Positions 222 through 16,245 of a stretch of DNA of 33,100 nt are shown here, in pieces (position 1 is the first letter of the stretch; each line of letters starts with the position of its first letter). The notes beneath the pieces are model-generated. The model made no database searches. It saw only the letters and a list, made by a program, of their open reading frames with translations, and was not told where the DNA came from. A program made the translations under genes and the position numbers. Source of the DNA: Verrucomicrobiota bacterium (GTDB lineage Bacteria; Verrucomicrobiota; Verrucomicrobiia; Limisphaerales; UBA9464); contig JANYCC010000456.1 of NCBI GenBank assembly GCA_025360495.1, forward strand, positions 1-33,100. The letters are read 5' to 3'.

Positions 222-497
222 ATGGAAACTGTGATCGCATGGGATGATGTCCCCCTGTTCGACAGCGAACAGGCGGAGGCGGCATTTTGGTCCGAGCACG
301 ACGTGGACCTGCGGTTGATGGATGCGGCGGCGACAGCGACGGGTGAGATGTCGGATTCGGTGAGCATCACCCTGCGGATGGATCCGCGGATGTTGGCACG
401 GATCAAGCGACTCGCCCGGTCCCGGTTCCTCAATTACCAGAGCATGATCAAGCAATGGCTCAGTGAACGGATGGAAAAAGAAGTGCGTGATCGTTAA
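222..497 (+). CDS. CopG/BrnA-like ribbon-helix-helix antitoxin
   Basis: This is a 91-residue protein starting at ATG 222, preceded by a purine run (GGAAAG) at a plausible ribosome-binding distance. The N-terminal half is acidic (DSEQAEAAFWSEHD), a pattern common in BrnA/CopG antitoxins for the toxin-binding segment. The C-terminal half (SVSITLRMDPRMLARIKRLA, then YQSMIKQWLSERMEKE) matches a ribbon-helix-helix DNA-binding fold: a short beta strand, then two helices, with the typical Y-Q-S-x-I-K-x-W-L-x-E-R helix. It lies directly behind the toxin fragment, so the two probably form an autoregulated toxin-antitoxin operon. Its last codons and stop fall inside the first copies of a 15-base tandem repeat. 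The family call is firm; the exact subfamily is inferred. Confidence 0.82.
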   Translation: METVIAWDDVPLFDSEQAEAAFWSEHDVDLRLMDAAATATGEMSDSVSITLRMDPRMLARIKRLARSRFLNYQSMIKQWLSERMEKEVRDR

Positions 498-540
498 GTG
501 CGTGATCGTTAAGTGGCCGATTGTTCAGTGCGTGACCGTT
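481..540 (+). repeat. Four 15-bp tandem repeats after the antitoxin
   Basis: Units run 481-495 and 496-510 (both AAGTGCGTGATCGTT), 511-525 (AAGTGGCCGATTGTT) and 526-540 (CAGTGCGTGACCGTT). The first two are identical; the third and fourth have diverged. The first unit encodes the last antitoxin residues, and the second supplies the final A-A of the TAA stop, so repeat expansion happened across the gene end. Because 15 is a multiple of three, the repeat does not shift any frame. The adjacent ORF-track start at 463 reads through it (CVIVKCVIVKWPIVQCVTV), but that is not a credible protein start. Confidence 0.9.
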
Positions 541-576
541 GATTTTCAAATTACACCCACCCGCCCTTCCGCCAGC

Positions 577-1320
577 ATGAATCCGCTGCCGTCAACCCCC
601 CTCCCACCCGCCGCCCGCCGCGGTGCGGGTTTCACGCTGATCGAATTGCTGGTGGTCATCTCGATCATTGCCGTGCTGGCCGGCATGCTCGTCGGTCTCG
701 CGCCCCAGGTTACCGTCCGCATGAAGGAGGCCCGCACCCGGGCGGAATTGGAGAAACTGGTCACCGCCATCGAGACTTATCGCGGACGGCACGGCGTGTA
801 TCCTCCCGACAATGTGATGGGTCGCGGATCGGATGGGACGCCGATCGTGAATTCGGTCACCAATGCCCTGTTTTATGAGCTGACCGGACTCATGGTGGTC
901 CGGACCAAAGGGGGCGGCTATTTCGTCCCGGTGGGGGATGGCGACCGGGCCCAGACGCGGTTGGATCCGACGCTGGTGCTGCAGTATTTCAACCGCGATG
1001 GGTTCGTGAACGCCGCGACGACGAACAACCTGCGGCGTCTCTATCATCACGACTTCAAGGACTCCCAGCACGCCTCGATCACCCGCGCGCCGACCCAGGC
1101 GCCCACCACGGCACCGAATGTCGAGGTTCTGACCGCGCCGATCCCCTGGCCTTTCAAGGACGCCCGGTTTCCCTCGCCGGTGGCCAAGCCCGGGTTCGAG
1201 ACCGTGAACCCGTGGCGCTATGTTTCCAGCAATCCGACCAACAACCCGGCCACCTTCGATCTGTGGGCGGAAGTGATCATCCGCGGCCAGCGGCGCGTCA
1301 TCGGCAACTGGAAGAACTGA
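577..1320 (+). CDS. GspG-like pseudopilin, type II secretion/pilus family
   Basis: This encodes a prepilin of about 247 residues. The ORF track starts at 463, but that adds a translated repeat. ATG 577 gives a normal short leader with the prepilin peptidase site RGAG/FTLIELLVV, where Gly is at -1, Phe at +1 and Glu at +5. A hydrophobic helix and a charged amphipathic helix (EARTRAELEKLVTAIETYRG) follow. The next segment (HGVYPPDN) resembles the GspG pattern in which a residue loop after the helix precedes the globular domain. The body is longer than classical GspG (about 140 residues). The product would be cleaved, N-methylated and assembled into an inner-membrane pseudopilus or secretion fibre. 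The gene opens a long same-strand block of pilin-like genes and sits 37 bases before the next one. No assembly ATPase or secretin lies in the window. Confidence 0.85.
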   Translation: MNPLPSTPLPPAARRGAGFTLIELLVVISIIAVLAGMLVGLAPQVTVRMKEARTRAELEKLVTAIETYRGRHGVYPPDNVMGRGSDGTPIVNSVTNALFYELTGLMVVRTKGGGYFVPVGDGDRAQTRLDPTLVLQYFNRDGFVNAATTNNLRRLYHHDFKDSQHASITRAPTQAPTTAPNVEVLTAPIPWPFKDARFPSPVAKPGFETVNPWRYVSSNPTNNPATFDLWAEVIIRGQRRVIGNWKN

Positions 1321-1357
1321 ATCCGAACCTTTCACATCACCCGTACCCGAAACCCGC

Positions 1358-2104
<747 letters not shown>

Positions 2105-2138
2105 AGTGACATAAACCCGGCCCCACCCCACCCCCCCC

Positions 2139-3026
2139 CTGTTCGACCCACACCATCTTCCGCCCCGTTCCGCCCGGCGTGCCTTCACGCTGATCGAGTT
2201 GCTGGTGGTGCTGGCGATCATCGGTGCGCTGGCGGCGGTCACCGTCCCGGCGTTCAAGGGATTCGGCCAGTCCAACTCCTTTACCACGGGGCAACGGCAG
2301 ATGATCGATGACCTCGGGTTCGCCCGGCAGGTGGCGATCAAGAGCCGTTCGACCGTCTATGTGCTGTTTGCGCCGACCAATGCCCACCTGCAGCAGCCGT
2401 TGTTTCTCAGCCTGAATGCCACGACGTACGGGAGCTTCCCGCGCGAGGCGCTGTCCACCCTGACGAATGTTGTGCTCGGCCAGTATGCCTCCTATGCCCT
2501 CTATGCGCAGCGCAAGGTGGGGGAACAGCCGGGCGTGGACCGGCCGCGGTACATCACCGAATGGAAGACGCTGCCGCAAGGGGTGATCTTCCCGAAGGAG
2601 ATGTTCCTCGGCGCGGACCCGGCGGTGAAGCTCCCAGTCGAAAAGCGCGTGCAACACCTCGCACAGCGCGGTTTCCCTTTCCCGGTCGTCCTCAAGGATC
2701 AGTTGCTCACCGAACAGATGACCCTGTGGGGTGGTCCCGACAAACTCCCCCAACTGCCCTTCATCGCCTTCGATCCGACGGGACGAATCTCCGACCAGAC
2801 CTACGCCGGCCTGCAGGGACCGAAGGGCGAGGCGATCCTGCCCGGGGCCGACGTGGTGATCGGGGTGGCGCCGGGCAGTGTCCTGATGCAACGCGACACC
2901 AACAGCGTGGTGATGCTGGGGGGCGGTGACGTGGTCGAGGCACCCCGGTTCGGCTATACCAACGGTCTCATCCGCATTTCCTACTACACCGGCCGGGCGC
3001 GGCTGGTGAAAAACCAACCCAAGTGA
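2139..3026 (+). CDS. Verru_Chthon cassette protein D-like prepilin, probable CTG start
   Basis: The ORF track begins at TTG 2199, which removes half of the prepilin signal. The frame is open back to a TAA at 2112 and encodes RRA/FTLIELLVVLAIIGALAA just before that TTG, so the true start is upstream. No ATG or GTG exists in that frame; the only reasonable codon is CTG 2139, directly after a run of nine C, giving a leader of about 15 residues. The body begins with a GQRQMIDDLGFARQVAIKSRSTVYVLF segment. This matches what is known of Verru_Chthon cassette protein D and GspH-like pseudopilins, where a helix is followed by an R-x-x-V-x-V-x-F strand. Ala rather than Gly sits at -1 of the cleavage site. 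The stop overlaps the next ATG (TGATG). Family call by motif and gene order; the start is uncertain. Confidence 0.78.
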   Translation: MFDPHHLPPRSARRAFTLIELLVVLAIIGALAAVTVPAFKGFGQSNSFTTGQRQMIDDLGFARQVAIKSRSTVYVLFAPTNAHLQQPLFLSLNATTYGSFPREALSTLTNVVLGQYASYALYAQRKVGEQPGVDRPRYITEWKTLPQGVIFPKEMFLGADPAVKLPVEKRVQHLAQRGFPFPVVLKDQLLTEQMTLWGGPDKLPQLPFIAFDPTGRISDQTYAGLQGPKGEAILPGADVVIGVAPGSVLMQRDTNSVVMLGGGDVVEAPRFGYTNGLIRISYYTGRARLVKNQPK

Positions 3027-3886
3027 TGCACGCCGCCCTTCCAGCACGGAACCGTCGCCAGTCGGCCTTCACCATGACGGAGATCGCCCTGTGCATCGCC
3101 GTCATCGGCATCGCCTTGGTCGCGATCATCGGGGTGCTCCCCAGCGGTCTCACCGTCCAGAAGCAGAACCGTGAGGACACCCTGGTCGCCCAGGATTCCC
3201 AGTTCCTGACCGAGTCGATCCGGAGTGGCAGCATCGGGATTTCCGACCTGACCAACCGCGTCGATTTCATCCATTGGCGACGCATGAGTGCGACGCCGGC
3301 GGAGCAGGGGGACGAGTATTATCGCGGACCGAATTTCACCGACGCCCTGCCGGGGACATCGATCCCCATCACGGATGCCTGGCAGATCCTCGCGCTGCTG
3401 AGCGTGCCCCGCTTTGAAAGCAAGTTGGTGGGCCGGAACGTGGTGTTGATCGAGAACGAAATCACCGCCCAATTCCGGTCCCTGAACAGTCCGTTCACGG
3501 AGAAAAGCTACCGGGATGGCGCCGGCAATCTGCCCGACCCGACCCGGTTCACGACCGCCCTGCGTTACTTGGTCAACGTGGAAGCGGTCTCGGCGGTGAC
3601 CCGACCGACACCGACCACCAATGCCTTCCCGAACCCCGTGGACTATGCGGTGGCGTTCAATCAACAACTCCAGTTGGACCAATCACTCAGCGACCTGAGG
3701 CTGACCTTCCAGTGGCCCGTTTACCGCGTGGGCACTGAATTCCGGGTGGGCGGCAGCCGGCGCACTTTCCGGACCCAGGTGTTTGGCAACCGTCAGATAT
3801 TGACCACCAATTTCATGGGCACCGGCCGGATCGTCTCCCGGTTCAACGGCAGTCCCGCCGTCACCAACCTTCTCCAGCGTTTCTGA
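3026..3886 (+). CDS. Verru_Chthon cassette protein B-like prepilin
   Basis: This is a 286-residue protein. ATG 3026 overlaps the upstream TGA by one base; the track's GTG 3023 adds one residue. A basic leader (ARNRRQSA) precedes FTMTEIALCIAVIGIALVAI, a divergent prepilin helix keeping Glu+5 but with Ala at -1 and Met at +3. The following IGVLPSGLTVQKQNREDT is close to the pattern I recall for Verru_Chthon cassette protein B, where a hydrophobic helix ends in G-L-L-P-x-G-L and a helix with RE follows. The rest is a beta-rich body with no recognisable enzyme motif. Position between the D-like and C-like genes supports the assignment. Its expected role is a minor pseudopilin, exported and anchored by its helix. 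It is coupled by a TGATG overlap to the next gene as well. Confidence 0.78.
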   Translation: MHAALPARNRRQSAFTMTEIALCIAVIGIALVAIIGVLPSGLTVQKQNREDTLVAQDSQFLTESIRSGSIGISDLTNRVDFIHWRRMSATPAEQGDEYYRGPNFTDALPGTSIPITDAWQILALLSVPRFESKLVGRNVVLIENEITAQFRSLNSPFTEKSYRDGAGNLPDPTRFTTALRYLVNVEAVSAVTRPTPTTNAFPNPVDYAVAFNQQLQLDQSLSDLRLTFQWPVYRVGTEFRVGGSRRTFRTQVFGNRQILTTNFMGTGRIVSRFNGSPAVTNLLQRF

Positions 3887-4860
3887 TGACCATGAAACCA
3901 AGCCGTACCCATCCCTTGCCGGCCCGCGGATTCTCGCTCATCGAACTGATGGTCGCCGTCGGACTCCTCGGGGTCATCGTCCTCGCCCTGTACGCGATGT
4001 TCGACCAGACCCAGAAGGCGTTGCGCGGTGCCTCCGGCCAGGCCGATGTCATGGAAGGGGCCCGGGCCGCGCTCGGATTGGTGACCCGCGACATCGAGGA
4101 GGCGGGGGCGGCGGGCGTGCCGAACGGCCCGAATTTCCTGACCCACGTGAGCGCAAAGGCCAACCTCATCGAGAACCAGACGCTCCTTTTCCAAGAGCAT
4201 CAACCGGTGTTGCAGGACGTCTTCGGCATCAAGAATGTCGGGGACCATCGGTGGCAGGTCTTCGGTTACTTCATCGCCAGCGAGGATTCGGCGGTCGTGG
4301 CGGTCAAGCCGCCCGTCGGCACCCTCTACCGGTATGAGGACCGCGATTATAGGAGCATGGTCAACGGGGACCTCCGGACCTCGTCCAGCAACACGCCGAT
4401 CCAATTCGTGACCCGGGGTTCCCTCGGCTCCTCGGTCCTGCAGCGTAACCTGATCACCAAGCCGGGCGCCCTCGGTTCCGACCCCACCCATCGCCTGAAC
4501 AACTCCGCCCGGGTCCTCGACGGGGTCGTCAACTTCCGCGTGACCGCCTACGACACGATCGGCCGGCCGATCGACCTGGTCTATCCCACGAATTCCCTCC
4601 CGGCACCGGACGGGGCCACGCGCTATCCACCGCTCACCCGGACCAGGATCCTGAAGGGACTGGTGACGGATGTGATCTATGCCGACACCGCGATGCCGGC
4701 CTATGTCGAGGTTGAGCTCGACACGCTGGAACCCCGGTTGCTGGAACAATTCCGGGCCCTGCCACCGGACATAAAGATCCGGAACCGCTACCTCACGAAC
4801 CATCTGGGCCAGATCCAGAGCTTCCGCCAACGCATTCCGATCCGCTCCTCCTTCCGATGA
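3886..4860 (+). CDS. Verru_Chthon cassette protein C-like / GspJ-like prepilin
   Basis: This is a 324-residue protein starting at ATG 3886 in a TGATG overlap; an ATG at 3892 is an alternative. The leader PARG/FSLIELMVAVGLLGVIVLAL is a canonical class III signal with Gly-1 and Glu+5. It continues as YAMFDQTQKALRGASGQADVMEGARAALGLVTRDIEEA. The long amphipathic helix ending in a RDI-E-A segment is typical of GspJ/PulJ minor pseudopilins and of Verru_Chthon protein C. The body includes strands with VVNFRVTAYDTIGRPIDL and a late YVEVELDTLEPRLLEQF helix, again GspJ-like. It is longer than GspJ (about 200 residues). It lies directly before the giant protein A-like gene, with a four-base ATGA overlap. 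The class is well supported; cassette naming is inferred from order and length. Confidence 0.8.
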   Translation: MTMKPSRTHPLPARGFSLIELMVAVGLLGVIVLALYAMFDQTQKALRGASGQADVMEGARAALGLVTRDIEEAGAAGVPNGPNFLTHVSAKANLIENQTLLFQEHQPVLQDVFGIKNVGDHRWQVFGYFIASEDSAVVAVKPPVGTLYRYEDRDYRSMVNGDLRTSSSNTPIQFVTRGSLGSSVLQRNLITKPGALGSDPTHRLNNSARVLDGVVNFRVTAYDTIGRPIDLVYPTNSLPAPDGATRYPPLTRTRILKGLVTDVIYADTAMPAYVEVELDTLEPRLLEQFRALPPDIKIRNRYLTNHLGQIQSFRQRIPIRSSFR

Positions 4861-7800
4861 ACCGCTCCTCCCAACGTGGTGTCGCGCTCGTCATCACCCT
4901 GATCATGCTGTCGGTGGTGACGATCACCGCCGTCGCTTTCCTGGCCGTCGCCCGGCGCGAGCGCGGTTCCGTGGGTGCGGCCGCCGAACTGGTGGATGCG
5001 CGATCGGCGTCGGAATCGGCCCTCGCGCGGGCGGAGGCCGAGGTGGCGGCGCGCATCCTCGGCACCGGCAACCGCATGGACATCCGGTTGCAGGTCTCCA
5101 CCAATTACGTCAACACGCAGGTCAACCTGGCGCAGCTCGACCAGATGGTCACCGAGACCCTGCCGACGGTTGATTACCGGATTTTCACGAATTCCAGCCC
5201 CCAGGTGCGGGCGGATGGATCCCCGTGGTTCAACCAGAACACCACGGCCGGCCTCCAGCATTCCCGGGCCGCGTTGGCGAACCTTTATTATGATCCGCGG
5301 CCCCCGGTTTATGCCGCCATCAGCCGCTCCCCGAATGTGCGGGCGGAGTTCCGATATTATCTCGACCTGAACCGGAACGGGATCTGTGACACCAACGGGG
5401 TGCAACTGATGTATGACCAGTCCCGCAAGGTGATCGGGACCAACACCCTGGTCGGGGATCCCGAGTGGGTCGGGGAGACGGAGTACCCGGGAGTCCCGCA
5501 TTCGGGCACCAACCGGTTCCAGAAACGCTGGGCTTTCGTGATCCTGCCCGCCGGCCGGACCCTGGACCTGAATTATCTCCACAATGACGTCAAGGATCGG
5601 CGGACGGTCCCCGGCGGATACGCACGCAACCAGGGGGTCGGGACGTTCGAGGACAATGGCGCGGCGTTCCTGGTGGATCTCAACACCAACGTCTGGCCGA
5701 CCACGTCCTACACCTATCGCCCCGCTTCCGGCGCGCTCAGCAGCGGCCTGGCGTTTGAGGACGCTTACCGCCTGTTTCTCGCCCGCCGTGGTGACCCGCA
5801 GCAGACCGTCCAACGCGGGGCCCCGGACTTCTTCGAGATGTCGCCGAAGCTAATGCCGTTCGGCAACAATCACATCGACGATTATGCGGACGGGCCGATC
5901 CCGGCGACGCTCGCGGAGTTCCGGCGCCCGCAGGATTATATCAACTCCAATCAGGGCGAGGACAGCCTCAAGGGCCGGTGGGCGGGCACGGACAACCAAC
6001 GGCAGATCCTCAACCTCTCGGGACTCCTGGACGGTTCGGTGGGGACGGACCTGGCGGCACGCCTCGCCGGTCGCACGAATTTTGCCGGGAACAAGCTGGT
6101 CAGCACGTACGACCAGAACACGTTTTACCGGATGCTCGGCAGCCTCGGCACGGACACCGGGGACGGCCGGTATGAATCGGGGACGAATTATTCCGGCGCA
6201 TTCTACCGTCGGGCCAAGCTGAACATCAATTATGCACCGGACAACAACGACCCGACCGTGGACCTGGCTTCGAGTGCGGACATCTCTTTTTTCAACGACT
6301 GGAAGCCCATCGCCTGGTTCACGAACGCCGTGCACCGGTTGTTGCTGACGGAGTTCACCAACGGCCTGCCCGACCGGCAATTGCTCACCAATTCCCGGAC
6401 CGCCCATCTCGGGCACGGGTTGGCCATCCACGGGACCAACGTCATCCGCGGCGTGACCAACATCTATCGGTATGATGCCGAGGTGCACCGGTTGCTACAG
6501 GTGGCGGCCAACATTTACGACGCCACCCATTACGTCTCGACCGCCCGTCCCGGGAATCCCCGCGGCGACATCCCGTCGGTGTTCCGCCCGATCTTATACC
6601 AGCAGCAGACCAATGGCGGGCTGCTCGTGCGCATCGCCGGTTTCCAGGAAGTCACCAATGCCGTCCCGCTGGGCCGGCCGTGGGTGGACTTGGACGACAA
6701 CCGCCAGGCGGCCCGTCTCTCGTCCAACCCGGACGTCGCGGCGATCCTGGCGGCCGGGCTGGATTTCAATGCGGCCGGGATCCCGTGGGTGGTCGGTGCG
6801 AAGCGCGGCCTGCCGAATTTCCAAGAGGGTTATTGGCAGAGCCGGTTGGATATCACGCGCCGGTTGAATATCACCAAGGCGCTGCCGACCGATGCCTTGG
6901 CAAAGACCAACGGCCGGCCATGGGAAGACGGTCGATTCGGTGCCTTTGCGCAGTATCGCTATGACGTGGCGAACACCTTCGGAATGGAGGCGTGGAATTC
7001 GTACTTCACCCTCTCCAACCCGACCGCCGTCACGCTGCGGGCGACCAATTATTTCGGGTTCGCCATCCGCGATGAAGCCAGCGGCCTCTACGGGCAGGCC
7101 ATCTACCAGACGAATGGCTTCAAAACCGCGTTCGCCACCATCGCGGCCGGAAAGTGGTCCCCTCAGGAATACCTGGCGCCCTTGAACGTCGGGTTCGGCA
7201 CCAACTTCGTCTATGACCACATCAAAAAGCAGATCTGGCCTGCTGGCTCGACCAACGGCGGTTATGTCGATATCCGGGCGCCGGCGCCGCGGTTGACGAT
7301 CGCGTTCACCAACCACCTGGTCTATGCGCTCATCGACCAAAGCGGCCGGTTGCTGGACATGGTGAATCTCAAGAGCGTGATGTACCAGACCAACGCCCTG
7401 GGGGTGCTCTCCAAACCCGCCGGCACCCCGTCGACCGGGCACCACATGAGCGAGTTCTGGAACACCAATCTCTATGCAGGCGTTGGACTCTATCTGAGCC
7501 AGGGCATCGCGCTCCAGTTCGACGGTTCCCTGGGCTCCAACCAAAAGGGCGGGGTGGTGGACATCCAGAATTCGCTGTGGAAGGAAGCCCCCGGGGTCCG
7601 GCCGGCGGGTCAGCAAAAGGATTATGAGAAGGACGGCCTGTATTATTTCCTGTTCCGGCTACCACGGCGCGCCGGTGAAAAGGTCGCGTCGGACGTGCTG
7701 GCCCATTTCGGGGGGACCGCCACCCAGGTGGGTTACACCCCGACGGCCACGGTGCTGCTGACCGACCGCCGCCAGGCCAACGATCCGCTGGTCCATTACA

Positions 7801-8948
7801 CCCCTGAGGACCTGGCCCCGGGACTCCTGCTGCACACCGCGCCGGAAGGCTACACCGAGGTCCAGGTGCCCGGCCAATTCACGCTGCGGTCCACTGCCGG
7901 TTCCAGCTTTACGGTCGAGGAACGGTCCCTCACCAACCATCTCGGCAACCAGGCCAAGGTCGTGCGCGCCTATGCCCCGTGGGGGGTGAACAGCGACCTC
8001 GGTTCGGGCGTCCCCGTCCCCGTCAACGACATCAAGTCCACCGCCTTCGACGTGGCGTATAAGGATTCGTTGGTGAAACGTTCGGACGACTGGAATTTCC
8101 CGACCAACAAGGTGCCCGGAATCGGCTGGCTCGGACGAATCCATCGGGGGACACCGTGGCAGACGATCTATTTGAAGGGGCTCAGGCCGGAGTTGGGCTC
8201 GACGCTGGTCGCGGACCGTTATTTGGGCGCCAAGAGTTGGGCGGGATGGTCGGGCAACGGGCGCACGATGCCCAACAACGACTGGGCCATCCTGGACCTG
8301 TTCACGGCGGCGGTGAATGACAACAGCGCGCGGGGTGTGCTTGGGGTCAACCAGACCAACCTCGCCGCCTGGTCCGCGGTGTTGTCCGGCATGCCCGTCC
8401 TGACGAACGTGACGGGGAAGCCCAATGGTGCCCTTAGCACGCGGTTCATCGAGCCCGCCACGCCGCAACTCCGGCGGATCGTGGAGAACATCAACAGCTC
8501 GCGGACGGGATTTGCCGGCGGGGTTTTCAGCCGGTTGGGCCAGGTGCTCTCCGCTTCCGCCCTCAGCGTGGGCCCGTTGGGCACCAACCAGGCATCCCCG
8601 GTTTTCTCGCCCTTCCTCACGCCGTTTGACCGTTACCAGATCCCGGGTTCCGCCACCTTCGTCCCGGCCGCCGTTCCCGACGAGGTGATCGAACAGATCC
8701 CGCAACAGGTGTTGTCCCTGCTCCGCACCGACGAAGCGCGCGTCGTGATTTACGCCTACGGCCAGGCCCTGAAGCCCGCGCCCAATTCCATCGTGACCCG
8801 ACCGGGGCCCTTCTTCGGATTGTGCACCAATTATGTCGTCACCAGCGAATTTGCCACCCGCACCGTCGTACGTTTTGACGGTGCCCCCCGTCCGGGACAA
8901 CTCCGGGCGGTGATCGAGGATCATCGCGTCCTGCCACCGGAAAACTGA
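4857..8948 (+). CDS. Verru_Chthon cassette protein A-like giant protein with pilin-type N-terminus
   Basis: This 1363-residue protein starts at ATG 4857, overlapping the previous stop by four bases. The N-terminus QRGVALVITLIMLSVVTITA is followed by a helix rich in Arg and Glu (RRERGSVGAAAELVDARSAS). This resembles PilX/GspK-type pseudopilins, which start G-x-A-L-V and have no strict Glu+5; here too Glu+5 is absent. The remainder is a large exported domain, rich in Asn, Tyr and Thr, with no catalytic signature I recognise. Large size, this N-terminus, and its place after D-, B- and C-like genes fit Verru_Chthon cassette protein A. By analogy with GspK it could cap the pseudopilus tip, but with a domain several times larger than GspK (about 330 residues). 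The C-terminal IYAYGQALKPAPNS stretch is probably a conserved family segment. Confidence 0.78.
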   Translation: MNRSSQRGVALVITLIMLSVVTITAVAFLAVARRERGSVGAAAELVDARSASESALARAEAEVAARILGTGNRMDIRLQVSTNYVNTQVNLAQLDQMVTETLPTVDYRIFTNSSPQVRADGSPWFNQNTTAGLQHSRAALANLYYDPRPPVYAAISRSPNVRAEFRYYLDLNRNGICDTNGVQLMYDQSRKVIGTNTLVGDPEWVGETEYPGVPHSGTNRFQKRWAFVILPAGRTLDLNYLHNDVKDRRTVPGGYARNQGVGTFEDNGAAFLVDLNTNVWPTTSYTYRPASGALSSGLAFEDAYRLFLARRGDPQQTVQRGAPDFFEMSPKLMPFGNNHIDDYADGPIPATLAEFRRPQDYINSNQGEDSLKGRWAGTDNQRQILNLSGLLDGSVGTDLAARLAGRTNFAGNKLVSTYDQNTFYRMLGSLGTDTGDGRYESGTNYSGAFYRRAKLNINYAPDNNDPTVDLASSADISFFNDWKPIAWFTNAVHRLLLTEFTNGLPDRQLLTNSRTAHLGHGLAIHGTNVIRGVTNIYRYDAEVHRLLQVAANIYDATHYVSTARPGNPRGDIPSVFRPILYQQQTNGGLLVRIAGFQEVTNAVPLGRPWVDLDDNRQAARLSSNPDVAAILAAGLDFNAAGIPWVVGAKRGLPNFQEGYWQSRLDITRRLNITKALPTDALAKTNGRPWEDGRFGAFAQYRYDVANTFGMEAWNSYFTLSNPTAVTLRATNYFGFAIRDEASGLYGQAIYQTNGFKTAFATIAAGKWSPQEYLAPLNVGFGTNFVYDHIKKQIWPAGSTNGGYVDIRAPAPRLTIAFTNHLVYALIDQSGRLLDMVNLKSVMYQTNALGVLSKPAGTPSTGHHMSEFWNTNLYAGVGLYLSQGIALQFDGSLGSNQKGGVVDIQNSLWKEAPGVRPAGQQKDYEKDGLYYFLFRLPRRAGEKVASDVLAHFGGTATQVGYTPTATVLLTDRRQANDPLVHYTPEDLAPGLLLHTAPEGYTEVQVPGQFTLRSTAGSSFTVEERSLTNHLGNQAKVVRAYAPWGVNSDLGSGVPVPVNDIKSTAFDVAYKDSLVKRSDDWNFPTNKVPGIGWLGRIHRGTPWQTIYLKGLRPELGSTLVADRYLGAKSWAGWSGNGRTMPNNDWAILDLFTAAVNDNSARGVLGVNQTNLAAWSAVLSGMPVLTNVTGKPNGALSTRFIEPATPQLRRIVENINSSRTGFAGGVFSRLGQVLSASALSVGPLGTNQASPVFSPFLTPFDRYQIPGSATFVPAAVPDEVIEQIPQQVLSLLRTDEARVVIYAYGQALKPAPNSIVTRPGPFFGLCTNYVVTSEFATRTVVRFDGAPRPGQLRAVIEDHRVLPPEN

Positions 8949-8979: not shown

Positions 8980-11900
8980 ATGCGCCCCTCCCGTCGCCCT
9001 CTGCTGCTTCTCGCCCTGGTCGCCTTTGTCGCGGCCCTGCTGTGCTTCCGTGCCGGTCGCACCCCCGCTCCCGGACGTCCCGTCCCGGGCGCCACCCCGG
9101 CCCCGGTGGCCACGGTGGGCTCCACCCCATCGGCGGCCCCGGGATCACCGGTGCGCCTTCGGTTGGCCGCCGCCACGCCTGCCAAATGGGTCAGCGTCAT
9201 CTCGCTGCCGGCCGGGCAACCGTTGGCGCATCCCGACCCGAAGTTCCCGCACCGGTTGCGCAACACGTCCGCGACCATCGGCCAGCTCAGCCGCAATGAG
9301 CGGGCGATCCTGCTCCGCAATGCCTTTGTGGACACCCAGGCCGGCGAGTCCCTGGCGGTTCCTGAATCGCTCCGGGCCGGTCCTGAGCCCGGCACTTATA
9401 TCGTGCAGGCGCGCGACACCCTGGATGACGCGTTCCGGCGCCGGCTTCAGCTCACCGGTGCCCGGATCATCTCTTATATCCCGAACAACGCGGTCTTGGT
9501 TCAGGCCACTGCGGACGTTGCGGAAGAACTCGCCAATGCGCCGGAAACCGGTGCGATCCTGGCCAACGAACCCCACTTCAAACTGGAGCCGGGCCTCGCG
9601 CTTCAGGCCCTCCAATCCCGCGGCACACCGGCCGAACTGCTCCTGACGGTCCTCGACGCCGACCGCACGCTGCCCCAGGTGGAAGCCCTCGGGGCCCATG
9701 CCGTGGCGCGTCAGCGCGGTCCGTTCGGGGAACTGATCGTCGTGGAGACCGGCGGCCGGGATATTCTGGTGCCATTGGCCCGGCTCCCAGGCATCACGTT
9801 GCTCGAGGCCGTGCAACATCGGCAGCCCGCCAACGACCGCGCCGGTTACATCCTCGGATCCAGCACCGACTTCACGAACAATGTCCCGACCCTCGGCCTC
9901 ACCGGGGCCGGGTTGGTCGTCAACATCAACGACACGGGCATTGACTCCACGCATCCCGACCTCGCGGGACGGGTGATTGCGGCCGACCCGGCGCAACTCC
10001 AGGACCTGAACGGCCACGGCACGCATGTGGCCGCCTCGATCGCCGGCAGCGGTGCGCAATCCGCCCTGGTGGTCACGGCGCAAGGCTCGGTCCCCAATGC
10101 CGATTTCCGGGGCAAGGCTCCGCGGGCACGGCTGTTCATCCTGCCGATCGACCTCCAGACGGGTCCGACGATCTCCGATGTTTTCCTGCAGGAAACCTTT
10201 GCCCGCACCAATCTGTTGCTGACCGGACGCACCAATGCGCCGATCTCGAACAACAGTTGGGGTTATCCCGCGGCCCTCGAATACACCAGTTTTTCCGCCA
10301 GTTACGACGCCGCGGTCCGGGATGCCCTCCCGGATGTGCCGGGGGATCAGCCGGTCATGTATGTCTTCGCGGCGGGGAATGCCGGCGACGGTGGGGCCAA
10401 CGGACTGGGAGGCGGCGCCGACACGGTCTCCGCGCCGGGCAATGCCAAGAATGTGATCACCGTGGGCGCCCTCGAATCGGCCCGCAACCTCACCAACATC
10501 GCGGTCTTCGACCAGAATGGCGTGATCGTCCGCTCGGGGAACACCGTCATCCCGGGCCGGGGCTATGATCCCAATGACCCGACTTATGTCACGAATGCCG
10601 TGTTCGGGGTCGAGACCGACTCCGATTATGAGGTCGCGAATTTTTCCAGCCGGGGCAATGTCGGCATCGGCACCGAGGGCGATTCCGGGCGGTTCAAACC
10701 CGATGTCGTCGCCCCCGGAACCTATATCCTTTCCGCCCGTTCCTCGCTCTGGCGGTTGGAAAACCAATTGCCCCCGGATGACGACCGGTTCCCGGTGACG
10801 CAGGAACTGATGGACGAGGTGGGTCCGTGGTACCGGTATGAATCGGGGACCAGCCAGGCCACGCCGTCCATCTCCGGGCTGCTGGCCCAGTTGGAGGAAT
10901 TCTATGAGATCCAGCAGGGGAACAAGATCCCGCCGGAAGGTTATAAGGCCATCCTCATCAATGGCGCGCGGGTCAACACGGAACGGTACCAGCCGGATCC
11001 CCACGACACGCTCAATTATGCCGGTTGGGGCGAACCCCATCTCCTGCGGTCCTTGAACAGCGGGTTCACCGCCGACGGCCAGACCCTGAACGGTTTCCTC
11101 AACGGACCCTCGGGCGGAACCAACAACCAGATCATCGGGTTTCCCATCGTCGGCCGTTCGAATGAGCTCGGGTTGGCGACGGGCGATGCGCGATCGTTCC
11201 GGATCAAGCTGGCCCTCCCTGAGGCCACCAATTATCCGGTCCGTTTCACGCTGGTCTGGACCGATCCGGCCGGCAACCCGGCGGCGGCGATCAAGTTGGT
11301 CAACGACCTCGACCTGGTGGTCACCAACGAGACGACCGGCGAGTTTTATCTCGGCAATGATTTCGAGGTGGGCACGGGCTTCAGCCGGTTGCTGACCCAG
11401 ACCAATCTCCTGGCCTCCACCGGGACCGGGACCGGCCAGGGCGGCACCGATCCGTTCGGGAACCCGATCACCTCGACCAACGTGGTCGCGGCCCAATTCG
11501 ACAACGTCAACAACGTCGAACGCGTCGTCCTGCCGCCGGGCGCCGGCACCGATTTTGTGGTGATCGTCCGGGCCCGCCGGGTGAATGTGAATGCCGTCCA
11601 ATTGCACCCGAACGGGATCGTGCAGGATGGCGCGCTGGTGTTCAGCAGCGATGCCCCGGACACCCTCGGCCTGGTGGGGACGATCTCCGATGCCTATGCC
11701 GTGCCGGCCAAGGATATCCTGACCGTGCGCCCGCCGATCAGCCCGGTCACCAACGGCCTGCCGATGTTCAACCAGCGGGTCGGTGCCAATTCACCGTTGG
11801 TCGGGACCGCGATCGGGACGACCAACCAGTGGCATTTCTACGTCTTCACCAACACGCCGGGCGGCACCAGCTATGGCGGGGCCCTCACCAACGGGAAGAA

Positions 11901-14900
11901 CGTCGCGTTCGTCACCTTCTTCCCCCCCAACCTTGCGTCGCCCCGCAACGAGGACGCGGACATCGATCTTTATGTGTCCTATGACCCGGGGTTGACCAAC
12001 CTCGTCCCGAGCGCGGTCACCAACGCCTTCAAGTCCACGGGTCGCGGTGGCACGGAATTCGTCGTGTTCACCAACGCCCCGGTCAACGGTGAGATTTATT
12101 ATATAGGGATCAAGTCCGAGGACATGCAGTCGGCGGACTACTCCTTTGTCGGGGTCAGCAGCACCGTTCCCTTCGGCGGGACCCGGCCGGATGGCAACGA
12201 TGCGGTCCATGGATTCCCGCTGGTCCAACCGATCCCCGACGGCACGCCGGCCAAGCCGGGCATCGGCTATTTCATGGGGTTGGGACTCAACCCGGGGGAG
12301 ATCCGGCGCGTCTGGGTCCAGGAAACCCTCAGTCACGGGAATTTCCCCGACCTGTTGGGCAATCTTTATAAGGACCGCATCAGCATCGTCCTGAACAACC
12401 ACGGCCAGATCGCCGACACCGTACGTGGCCGCGTCCAATTCGGGACGAATATCACGACCATCTATGATGATTTCGGGAGCCGCGCCTTCAAGGGCTCGGT
12501 GCCCACCGACGGGCCCGGGCGATTGATCAGTTTCCTGGGTCGTCCGACTTCCGGCGTCTGGCTCCTGCAGACCATCGATGACGCCCAGGGCAACACCGGG
12601 CGGATCAATGCCCTGGAGCTGATCGTCCAGCCCAATGACTTCGGGACCCGTCTGGTGCACCGGACGGTCCAGCCCGGGGAATGCGAAACCGAGGTGGTGA
12701 ACGTGCCGCCGAACGGGAGCAAGCTGACCGTAATCGTCACCAACATGCAGCCGTCGCTGCCCTTGGAGGTCCTGATCCAGCGTGATGACGGGGGATTCCC
12801 GGATCCGACCCAGCCGGGAGCTTCGCAGAAGTCCGCCACGATCATACCCCCGGGGGGGACCGTGTCATTGGGGATCGGGGACGAACCGCCGCTGATTCCG
12901 GGCCGATACTTTGTCAGCGTGTGCAACCCGAACACGGTGGCGGTGAGCTACGACACGGCCCGGTTCATCGAGCAGAACCTGCCCGATTCCTTCAACCGCA
13001 CCCTGAACTCGGATCCGGCCAACAATATCGCCCTCCAGGATGTGGCCGAAAGCGAGTCCCGCATTGTCGTGACGGACACCCGCCCGGTGAGTTCGGTCGA
13101 GGTGGGTCTGCGCATCATCGACCCCCGGGAATCCGATCTCGCAATCCACCTGGTGAATCCGCAGGGGGACCGGGTTTTGGTGACCGAAAACCGCGGGCTC
13201 CGGGACGCCAACGGTTATGGCGGGAGCCAGCGTCTCACCAATTTCCAGCACCTTGCCGCGACGTTTGATGCGGCGAGCAGCCGGGCCGCGATCCTCGTGG
13301 ACGGCCGGCCCATCACCAACGCGCTCATGGGCTCCGTGAAGCTGCCGGTGGACCGCCGGTTGAGCCTCGCCCGGGATCCGACCCGGGGGTTCACCACCGA
13401 CCATGCCTCGGTGACGCTCGATGACGTCGGCTTCTGGCGGCGGCCGTTGGGAACGGACGAGGTGCTGTCCATTTATAAGGATGGTTTTGACGGCTTTGGG
13501 AAACGGTCAGGGCTGTCGACCGCGGGATTGGCGGCCTTATGGAGGATGGACCTGACCGGCGATGACGCCTTGGGTGCGAATAATCTCTCGTTGTTGGGCC
13601 CGGTGGTCAGCACGGCCGGACAGATCGACACGGCGTTGGCGTTCATCGGGGTGACCTCGGAAGGGCGCACACCGCGGCTGCCGCTGGATGTCGGGATCGG
13701 CTTCAGCTTGGAAGGCTGGATCCAGTTGCTGCGCGACAACCGACGGGTGGTGTTCGGGGCCTGGGGTCCGGAAGCGGGTCTCTCGATGCCCGCGGTGTTG
13801 GTCGGGTTCGACGCGCCCTGGGGCAACGGAGCCGGCTCGGTTTCGTTCGTGTTCGAAGGGGCGGACGGCACGCCCAAGATGCTGGTGAGCGATCCCGGCC
13901 TGATCCTGGCCGACAATTTCACCACCAATAAGACTTATGCGGTGTTCGGCGAGCTCACCAACCACACGGCCGGTCCCATCAAGTTTGTCCTCCCGCCGTT
14001 CAATGGGACCAACACCTCCACCGTCGTGCTGGAAACCAATGGTTTCGAATCCGTCACCGCCGGGATCTTCCTGCCGGGAACCGCCGTGGAGGGCTGGCAG
14101 ATCCGGACCAACCCCGCCGCCGTCCGGTTGTTTGTTCCCGGGGCGCATGATGGCAACCAGGTGCTGGCGATGGGTGCGGCGACACTGGTGAAAGCGATCA
14201 CGGTCACGCCGGGCGAGCGTTATCGGGCGTCATTCTATGGACGACAGGCCGACGACGCGACGAACCGGGTGCAATTCAACGTCGTGCTGGACGGCCAGGT
14301 GGACCAGACCGTGGATGTCAGCACGGAATGGGTGCGCACCGAGGTGCGGTTCCGGGCGAAGACCAACCTGCTGGTCCTCACGCTGGTGCCGACTTCAGTG
14401 GGCAACCTGAACACGGACGGGGCGCCCTCGGGTCTGCTCTTGGATTCCTTCCAATTCGAGGAGATCGGCTCGGCGGTCACGTACCTGCCCGAGGAGGATT
14501 TCACTCCGTTGCTCGGCAAGTCCGGGGCGGGGGAATGGCGACTCGAGGTCACCGACGACCGGGGCACCGTCACCGGGATCATCGATGGGTGGCAATTGCA
14601 CCTGACCTTCGCCCAGACCAACCGGCCGATTGTGATCCTCACGAACGGCGTGCCCTATCAGGCCGGGATTCCGGGCGGTGGGATCGCCTACTTCCGGATG
14701 GACGTCCCGTTGGAGGCCCGGGCCGCCACCAACACCCTCTTTATCTCGGACCCTGGCGATCCCCTGTTGCTTCTTTACAGCGACACCGGCCTCCCCGACG
14801 GCAGCCAGCCGAACGATGTCGTCGCCAATGCCAATCCGTACATCGTGGGAACCAACCTGCCCCCGATCCTGCCACGCGGGCAGCGCTATTATCTGTCGGT

Positions 14901-16245
14901 CCTCAACCCGGATCCCACCCGCACCAACCTGTTCACGATCCGCGCCGATCTCGACCTCGGATTGATCGTGCTGACCAACGGGATCCCCTATGCCCGCACC
15001 AACATCGGGCCCGGCCGGTTGGATTTTTATGCCTTCGATGTCCCCTCCGACGCGACGGTGGCCAACTTCGAGATCCCGTCGATGACCTCCGACATGAACC
15101 TGTTTGTGTCGAGATTCCCGACCCTTCCGCGGCAATTTGTCTATGATTACGCGGGGACGAACACGGGCACGACGCCCGAGTTGATCTCCATTGATGGACA
15201 ATCCGTCCCGGTCCCGCTGACGCCCGGCCGGTGGTTTCTCGGGGTGGCGGCCGGGGGCACCAATTCCGGGAATTATTCGATCCTGGCGTCGGCTTTCACC
15301 GGCAGTCTGACGGTCATCACCAACGACACGTCGGTGTTGGTGACCAACACCGTGGTCGGGTCGACCCAGTATTATGCGGTGGATGTCCCGGACAGCGCGA
15401 CGGCACTGGTGGTGACGGCGGCGCCCTTGGTGGGGCAATTGGGGATTTATATGAAGGACAGCCTGCCGCTGCCCAGCCCCACCTCTTATGATGTCCGCTC
15501 AACCCATCTGGTGGGCGGCATCGAGTTGATCCAGTTGACCGCCGCCACCAAGCCGCTCGCGCTCGCGCCGGGCCGCTATTACATGGCGGTGCATGACGAG
15601 GGCGCGACGCCGGCAATCTACGCGCTGAACGTCATCATTCTCTTCGATCGGACGGACGTCATCAGCCTCTTCGATGACGTGCCGCTGGCCGCGGTGCTGG
15701 TCGGGTCCACGAGCACGATTTACCGGTTCGACGTGGATCCCGGGGTGCCGATGGTCCTGTTCGAGATCTATGGTTTGGATGGGCCGGTGGACCTGGTGGC
15801 CGCGAAGGGCGCCGTGCCGTCGGCATTCACCCGTAATTTCAGCAATATCCGACCCGCCAATGCCCCGGAACTGGTGCTCGTGACGACCAATGATTTCACC
15901 GATCTTTCGGGCCCTTGGTATCTGAGCGTCAGTGGATCCACGCCCGGGCCGGTGAATTATACCGTCCGGGCGGCGATGGTCCGGGACGGCAATCCCTTCA
16001 GTCGCGCACCGCTGACCCTCGTGTTGATCCCGGGTTTGGGAACCACCATCAAGGGACGGATCGAATTCAACTCGGTGCCCGGGCTGACGTATCAGGTCCA
16101 GTTCGCGACCGACTTCGGTTTGATCGATCCCTGGCAGGATCTCGGGTCGGCGGTTGTGGCGACCGGCTATGACACCTCGGTGCCGATCGACATGACCTCG
16201 GAGGATGCCCGTTACTATCGGGTGGTCCAGATCACCAACCCGTGA
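8980..16245 (+). CDS. Giant secreted subtilase (S8, KP-43-like) with P, LamG, DUF642 and PPC domains
   Basis: This 2421-residue protein starts at ATG 8980 with a signal peptide (RRPLLLLALVAFVAALLCF). A propeptide-like region (about 130-200) precedes an S8 domain. Its triad is Asp318 (NDTGID), His346 (GHGTHVA) and Ser625 (SGTSQATP, where GTSMATP is usual), with oxyanion Asn467 (AAGNAG). At about 737-893 a beta-sandwich with TLVWTDPAG and LVNDLDLVV matches the KP-43-type S8 tail. A first P/Homo-B-like domain lies near 1100-1222. A second begins near 1350 and appears interrupted by LamG-like sequence (1418-1640) and a DUF642-like domain (1687-1830), finishing as GEWRLEVTDDRGTVTG near 1850. Four PPC-like repeats span about 1887-2337, and a C-terminal module ends in ARYYRVVQ. 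It probably acts outside the cell or at the surface. Its target is unknown. It follows the cassette by 31 bases. Confidence 0.88.
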   Translation: MRPSRRPLLLLALVAFVAALLCFRAGRTPAPGRPVPGATPAPVATVGSTPSAAPGSPVRLRLAAATPAKWVSVISLPAGQPLAHPDPKFPHRLRNTSATIGQLSRNERAILLRNAFVDTQAGESLAVPESLRAGPEPGTYIVQARDTLDDAFRRRLQLTGARIISYIPNNAVLVQATADVAEELANAPETGAILANEPHFKLEPGLALQALQSRGTPAELLLTVLDADRTLPQVEALGAHAVARQRGPFGELIVVETGGRDILVPLARLPGITLLEAVQHRQPANDRAGYILGSSTDFTNNVPTLGLTGAGLVVNINDTGIDSTHPDLAGRVIAADPAQLQDLNGHGTHVAASIAGSGAQSALVVTAQGSVPNADFRGKAPRARLFILPIDLQTGPTISDVFLQETFARTNLLLTGRTNAPISNNSWGYPAALEYTSFSASYDAAVRDALPDVPGDQPVMYVFAAGNAGDGGANGLGGGADTVSAPGNAKNVITVGALESARNLTNIAVFDQNGVIVRSGNTVIPGRGYDPNDPTYVTNAVFGVETDSDYEVANFSSRGNVGIGTEGDSGRFKPDVVAPGTYILSARSSLWRLENQLPPDDDRFPVTQELMDEVGPWYRYESGTSQATPSISGLLAQLEEFYEIQQGNKIPPEGYKAILINGARVNTERYQPDPHDTLNYAGWGEPHLLRSLNSGFTADGQTLNGFLNGPSGGTNNQIIGFPIVGRSNELGLATGDARSFRIKLALPEATNYPVRFTLVWTDPAGNPAAAIKLVNDLDLVVTNETTGEFYLGNDFEVGTGFSRLLTQTNLLASTGTGTGQGGTDPFGNPITSTNVVAAQFDNVNNVERVVLPPGAGTDFVVIVRARRVNVNAVQLHPNGIVQDGALVFSSDAPDTLGLVGTISDAYAVPAKDILTVRPPISPVTNGLPMFNQRVGANSPLVGTAIGTTNQWHFYVFTNTPGGTSYGGALTNGKNVAFVTFFPPNLASPRNEDADIDLYVSYDPGLTNLVPSAVTNAFKSTGRGGTEFVVFTNAPVNGEIYYIGIKSEDMQSADYSFVGVSSTVPFGGTRPDGNDAVHGFPLVQPIPDGTPAKPGIGYFMGLGLNPGEIRRVWVQETLSHGNFPDLLGNLYKDRISIVLNNHGQIADTVRGRVQFGTNITTIYDDFGSRAFKGSVPTDGPGRLISFLGRPTSGVWLLQTIDDAQGNTGRINALELIVQPNDFGTRLVHRTVQPGECETEVVNVPPNGSKLTVIVTNMQPSLPLEVLIQRDDGGFPDPTQPGASQKSATIIPPGGTVSLGIGDEPPLIPGRYFVSVCNPNTVAVSYDTARFIEQNLPDSFNRTLNSDPANNIALQDVAESESRIVVTDTRPVSSVEVGLRIIDPRESDLAIHLVNPQGDRVLVTENRGLRDANGYGGSQRLTNFQHLAATFDAASSRAAILVDGRPITNALMGSVKLPVDRRLSLARDPTRGFTTDHASVTLDDVGFWRRPLGTDEVLSIYKDGFDGFGKRSGLSTAGLAALWRMDLTGDDALGANNLSLLGPVVSTAGQIDTALAFIGVTSEGRTPRLPLDVGIGFSLEGWIQLLRDNRRVVFGAWGPEAGLSMPAVLVGFDAPWGNGAGSVSFVFEGADGTPKMLVSDPGLILADNFTTNKTYAVFGELTNHTAGPIKFVLPPFNGTNTSTVVLETNGFESVTAGIFLPGTAVEGWQIRTNPAAVRLFVPGAHDGNQVLAMGAATLVKAITVTPGERYRASFYGRQADDATNRVQFNVVLDGQVDQTVDVSTEWVRTEVRFRAKTNLLVLTLVPTSVGNLNTDGAPSGLLLDSFQFEEIGSAVTYLPEEDFTPLLGKSGAGEWRLEVTDDRGTVTGIIDGWQLHLTFAQTNRPIVILTNGVPYQAGIPGGGIAYFRMDVPLEARAATNTLFISDPGDPLLLLYSDTGLPDGSQPNDVVANANPYIVGTNLPPILPRGQRYYLSVLNPDPTRTNLFTIRADLDLGLIVLTNGIPYARTNIGPGRLDFYAFDVPSDATVANFEIPSMTSDMNLFVSRFPTLPRQFVYDYAGTNTGTTPELISIDGQSVPVPLTPGRWFLGVAAGGTNSGNYSILASAFTGSLTVITNDTSVLVTNTVVGSTQYYAVDVPDSATALVVTAAPLVGQLGIYMKDSLPLPSPTSYDVRSTHLVGGIELIQLTAATKPLALAPGRYYMAVHDEGATPAIYALNVIILFDRTDVISLFDDVPLAAVLVGSTSTIYRFDVDPGVPMVLFEIYGLDGPVDLVAAKGAVPSAFTRNFSNIRPANAPELVLVTTNDFTDLSGPWYLSVSGSTPGPVNYTVRAAMVRDGNPFSRAPLTLVLIPGLGTTIKGRIEFNSVPGLTYQVQFATDFGLIDPWQDLGSAVVATGYDTSVPIDMTSEDARYYRVVQITNP

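Follow-up and report, generated by a model that had tools for sequence, protein, structure and literature searches.

The protease gene and its P-domain

The window (the whole 33,100-nt stretch that was analysed) belongs to a fragmented MAG of 482 contigs, and carries on its forward strand a gene for a large S8 (subtilisin-like) protease, directly preceded by a pseudopilin-type cassette. The protease has 2,421 residues and is encoded by one open reading frame (8980–16245, forward strand), as read from the ORF list and its translation; the assignment is based on a Peptidase_S8 match of 126.4 bits and on a homologue, L015, that is collinear over the full length. Its N-terminus contains a hydrophobic segment resembling an export signal. 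The catalytic domain (residues 309–684; 9904–11031, forward strand) is entire, matching positions 1–288 of PF00082, and has the Asp, His and Ser motifs (NDTGID, GHGTHVA and GTSQATP); these were picked out by eye, and the proteolytic activity is predicted. Many beta-rich modules follow downstream of the catalytic domain. At 12300–12640, N-terminal to the split P-domain described below and in the same protein, there is an earlier P-like segment that is apparently uninterrupted (GEIRRVWVQETL...VWLLQTIDDAQGNTGRINALELIV).

The cassette occupies 463–8948 of the forward strand and comprises six genes (463–1320, 1358–2104, 2199–3026, 3023–3886, 3886–4860 and 4857–8948), which were recognised by prepilin N-terminal motifs and by N-termini like those of GspG, GspJ and Verru_Chthon proteins. 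Two of the products are GspG-like, three resemble minor pseudopilins, and the last is a 1363-residue Verru_Chthon-A-like protein. Every full-length NCBIfam score for these proteins lies under its cut-off.

The stabilising P-domain that concerns us here is present as three segments, all on the forward strand. The first (13090–13224) matches positions 2–45 of P_proprotein (PF01483) with 23.8 bits, and the last (14506–14604) matches positions 54–86 with 27.3 bits, so that both ends of the profile score above the cut-off, with two interruptions between them. The middle segment, of approximately 26 residues (KTYAVFGELTNHTAGPIKFVLPPF; 13930–14007), corresponds to a conserved block, P2, that scores 50 bits in the family scan. 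The first-pass annotation had described a P-domain interrupted twice, and the two-piece profile match bears this out. The motifs that it quoted all lie in the one reading frame where it had placed them (VSSVEVG at 13090, FQHLAATF at 13243, GLAALWRMD at 13525, FSLEGWIQ at about 13702, KTYAVFGELTN at 13930, GKSGAGEW at 14515, and WQLHLTF ending at about 14610).

We refer to the sites of the two interruptions as loops A and B. The content of loop B (approximately 14026–14478, forward strand), to which the earlier annotation had given no name, is a CBM_4_9/choice-of-anchor-C-like module. Its profile scores are below the cut-offs, both for PF02018 (20.5 bits; cut-off 25.9) and for TIGR04362 (21.2 bits), and its best Foldseek matches are to CBM4-2 of a Rhodothermus xylanase, with a probability of 1.0.

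The insert in loop A

Loop A holds an insert of residues 1416–1650 (13225–13929, forward strand), which had been proposed to be a circularly permuted LamG; the proposal is supported by rotation of the sequence against a profile, by the predicted fold of the insert, and by 40 other loci. The profile is a LamG HMM trained on 40 normal-order LamGs, nearly all from the same bacterial order as the window and none of them permuted. Against it, the part of the insert that is encoded first (13231–13494, forward strand) matches the C-terminal half of the domain (positions 127–216, 35.1 bits, i-E 2e-11), and the part that is encoded second (13525–13920, forward strand) matches the N-terminal half (positions 3–131, 25.6 bits, i-E 1.6e-8), where the i-E values refer to the small set of sequences searched. 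The reversed order of halves that had been read by eye thus reappears in the profile coordinates. The two halves are complementary, meeting at a single place in the profile (approximately 127–131) with nothing missing between them. The gap between the two matches (13495–13524, forward strand) encodes a linker of about 10 residues, which would connect what were the C- and N-termini of the ancestral LamG. Of the two halves, Pfam recognises the C-terminal one alone, as Laminin_G_3 (29.9 bits against a cut-off of 27.6, positions 55–150). Compared with this family (PF13385), nearly all profile positions are present over the two halves but their order is swapped, and in the canonical order just 76–150 of the 151 positions are matched, by the N-terminal side of the insert.

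When the window insert is rotated in silico, it gives a single continuous match to the LamG HMM (positions 3–216, 68.5 bits). Rotation raises the score of all 38 inserts that could be scored (median gain 35 bits, median coverage 98%), whereas the same operation lowers the score of every one of the 36 normal LamGs in which the corresponding cut was possible (median change −98.6 bits). Judged by these profile scores, the swapped-order signal is far beyond chance, and the pair of matches, the gain on rotation and the loss in the control together indicate a complete and circularly permuted domain rather than unrelated fragments. A profile search of the PDB aligns insert positions 4–87 with residues 160–241 of the ConA-like part of 6hox, and positions 116–182 with residues 38–106; by this alignment, the insert has the two parts of a solved ConA-like domain in exchanged order.

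The insert was also modelled by itself (241 residues, 1414–1654) with AlphaFold2, from an input of 40 inserts, giving a mean pLDDT of 92.1 and a pTM of 0.91. In the model it is one compact domain, with the two halves confidently packed together. For the whole P-domain the values are lower (pLDDT 83, pTM 0.59), and the arrangement of the modules within it is therefore unsure. The structure prediction that had been suggested as a check is thus positive for the insert, which is predicted to fold as one domain, and uncertain for its placement in the P-domain. In a sequential Foldseek search, the top matches of the insert are an engineered permuted beta-glucanase (1ajo) and concanavalin A, but these are weak (TM 0.37, E 0.003 and above); since all E-values exceed 0.001, they are suggestive of permutation and do not prove it. 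A normal sandwich would be possible for such a sequence, as in the ConA-like fold the old termini would be adjacent and the new ones would fall at a turn from strand to strand.

Distribution and origin of the permuted copies

We searched 320 genomes of the order and extracted the P-domains. Permuted inserts are found at 41 loci, including that of the window, in five families (f1, f83, f91, f97 and f99), and always in loop A. The window belongs to f1, which carries the permuted insert in its sampled genera. The other 40 inserts are 24–64% identical to that of the window, and in L015 (from the Verrucomicrobia MAG Pedos-303) the whole 7.3-kb gene is collinear with that of the window and the LamG insert is 63% identical. 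Homologues with the same order, which had been named as a check, thus occur in five families of one Verrucomicrobia order. A class-wide search places the permuted insert in P-domains of this order exclusively. The same search produced many matches in which a C-terminal half precedes an N-terminal half outside the P-domain, and these were rejected as permuted LamGs, all 13 of the loci that were fetched (L110–L122) being tandem normal LamGs. In eight closely related pairs the dN/dS of the insert is 0.05–0.29, and the insert is therefore under purifying selection.

In orthologous proteases of other families, loop A is empty or contains a small beta insert, a CBM, or a CBM with a nested normal-order LamG. 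Loop B contains a CBM in almost all orthologues, often with a nested normal-order LamG. The proteases of f97, f99, f91 and f83 have a permuted LamG in loop A plus a normal LamG in loop B; a scan of P-domain blocks finds no loop B LamG in f1 proteases, including that of the window. The small beta insert (loop A of L083, L091, L094, L096, L097 and L104) spans approximately 128 residues between the flanking blocks, has the motif TSGTxxIxYDFYxxPDTMxVYY, and is found in many families. Nesting reaches three levels (P-domain, CBM, LamG) in loop A of L089, L093 and L101 and in loop B of L099 and L104, and in these loci the nested LamG sits at the same place in the CBM, at about 77–83 of the CBM profile.

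For the phylogeny of the domain, a maximum-likelihood tree was built from 75 LamGs, with the permuted copies rewritten in canonical order and the root placed at LamGs from other proteins. The 38 permuted copies all fall in a single clade (bootstrap 100, SH-aLRT 92), within which there is no normal-order LamG of this set. The clade is nested among CBM-borne LamGs of orthologous proteases (those in loop B of L104, L088, L099 and L102 and in loop A of L089), with the loop B LamGs of L104 and L088 being nearest. Trees of the separate halves each contain a single permuted group with the same nearest normal-order rows, though less well supported (SH-aLRT 51 and 92); the agreement between them argues against a chimera whose halves are unrelated. 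In a tree of the host proteins without their inserts, the permuted trait requires two changes, and these can be read as a single gain and a single replacement in f83. Independent origins in f1 and f97/f99 were also considered, and were rejected on the single clade in the LamG tree. According to these trees, the permuted LamG arose once, from a lineage of LamGs nested in the CBM of orthologous proteases, mostly in loop B.

The two halves might alternatively be incomplete and unpaired remnants of two LamGs, left by a deletion in a tandem pair. Tandem LamGs are common, such a deletion would be easy, and of the two halves in the window the N-terminal one scores lower (25.6 bits); however, in the members the halves join at one and the same place in the profile and jointly amount to 98% of one LamG, the insert alone is predicted to fold as one domain, and purifying selection and conservation extend across the five families. 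We regard these remnants, which had been raised as an alternative at the outset, as very unlikely. Still less probable is an independent ConA-like family that has this strand order by chance and is no rearranged LamG. The window copy is divergent and Pfam recognises only one of its halves, but the halves of the f83, f97 and f99 inserts match normal LamGs strongly (in L066, 73 and 84 bits, and 165.5 bits after rotation), and the permuted clade nests inside the normal-order LamGs. As for an artefact of assembly or binning, which would be a natural suspicion in a genome of 482 contigs and had been considered as a possible refutation, we can practically dismiss it: the same order recurs at the 40 other loci, in many genomes and at the identities given above, the gene is collinear over its whole length in L015, and its neighbours are conserved.

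A complete permuted LamG of single origin has still to be derived from one of normal order, and the material for this exists in the lineage. Tandem arrays of two to six LamGs, joined by linkers of 7–12 residues, are found in at least ten proteins, including other large proteins of the class (L110–L122), and the insert's linker of about 10 residues is similar in length. One protease (L066, genome G399) has two tandem normal-order LamGs in its loop B CBM (residues 1046–1468) and a permuted LamG in loop A as well, and tandem normal-order copies are thus present in the lineage, as for the swaposins discussed below. In a history of this type, a unit that begins halfway through the first LamG of a tandem pair and ends halfway through the second would consist of a C-terminal half, a linker and an N-terminal half, and this unit would have been copied into loop A. 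Permutation by duplication is the simplest and likeliest history, of which we infer the last step, the copying into loop A; no intermediate (a LamG pair or a half-trimmed pair) was found in loop A among the 75 P-domains in which that loop was scored, a limited sample.

The same gene order could be reached with no tandem pair if a circular LamG DNA had been integrated, or if copying had switched templates at short repeats coding for TN. Of the 41 inserts, 37 have residues of the TN/SN type at the 5' junction and 39 have them at the 3' junction, and the empty loops of L092, L099 and L102 also have TN ahead of the next strand. TN is very common in these proteins, however, is found before the WxHVA strand of normal LamGs too, and may be a mere signature of the fold; moreover, tandem pairs account for the linker without circles. 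We consider this route rather improbable, and prefer duplication. Microhomology was likewise rejected as a proof of crossover: both junctions carry TN, but there are 41 occurrences of TN in the 2421 residues.

Possible role and comparison with known systems

Permutation would tether the LamG by a different edge and could turn another face outward, and we infer that it may have changed the orientation of the domain in this way. Going by the families to which they belong, the permuted LamG and the CBM of loop B probably form an arm that binds glycans or surfaces and places the protease on its substrate. The explanation as a whole, namely a complete LamG, permuted at the level of the gene, set in loop A, with a single origin by way of duplication and a probable role as a binding arm, seems to us very probable.

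Upstream of the orthologous protease, most or all of the cassette genes recur with their order unchanged in 16 of the 17 neighbourhoods examined across the bacterial order, whatever the content of loop A; in the seventeenth (G399) no cassette gene was detected in the short stretch before the end of the contig. From this neighbourhood, it is plausible that the protease is the cargo of a dedicated type II-like system of export or display. A broader reading would make the P-domain an evolutionary socket whose two loops swap lectin-type modules (the contents being nothing, the small beta insert, a CBM, a CBM with a nested LamG, or the permuted LamG), the protease a conserved enzyme and the dedicated cargo of a pseudopilin export system throughout the order, and the permutation a change retained because it presents another lectin face to the substrate; we offer this as a tentative possibility, on the doubtful side. 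The literature searched contained nothing relevant on P-domain insertions in these bacteria or on Verru_Chthon cassettes. Nor did it include any previous description of a permuted LamG, most subscription papers being outside the reach of the search.

Among known systems, the lectin insertion of the Vibrio sialidase type (PF09264) is similar in that a ConA-like lectin is set into a secreted enzyme, but it has the normal order, and this profile matched only one of 40 members, weakly. Plant aspartic proteases provide a closer parallel in the swaposin, or plant-specific insert, which is a permuted saposin; there, the existence of saposins in tandem points to permutation by duplication (PMC3320104). 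As in our case, a permuted domain lies within a protease, the normal-order relatives occur in tandem, and duplication is the proposed origin; the swaposin differs in having the helical saposin fold, in belonging to another protease clan and in being eukaryotic, whereas the host protease of the LamG insert has orthologues in which the normal-order donor lineage is present. Concanavalin A shares with the insert its general fold and a circular permutation, but there the permutation is post-translational (PMC3320104), while that of the insert is in the gene, and the insert lies nested within a second domain. The 1,3-1,4-beta-glucanase of Fibrobacter is a natural permuted jelly roll (cited in PMC2395249). 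This enzyme and the engineered 1ajo resemble the insert in being ConA-like jelly rolls permuted at the level of the gene, and differ in being stand-alone glucanases rather than inserted LamGs, with 1ajo only a weak structural match.

Circular permutations are often recognised by comparison of distant structures alone, the donor and the empty host having been lost. For the LamG insert, the permuted domain, the normal-order donor lineage, the empty loop and the alternative occupants are all extant in orthologues of one protease within one order, and the direction of the change, its single origin and its host context can therefore be read directly. Annotation of the Pfam type displays a permuted LamG as half a LamG, and partial matches of this kind may conceal further permuted lectin domains. 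The insert is an unusually well-documented case of a protein domain that has been re-cut in the course of evolution.
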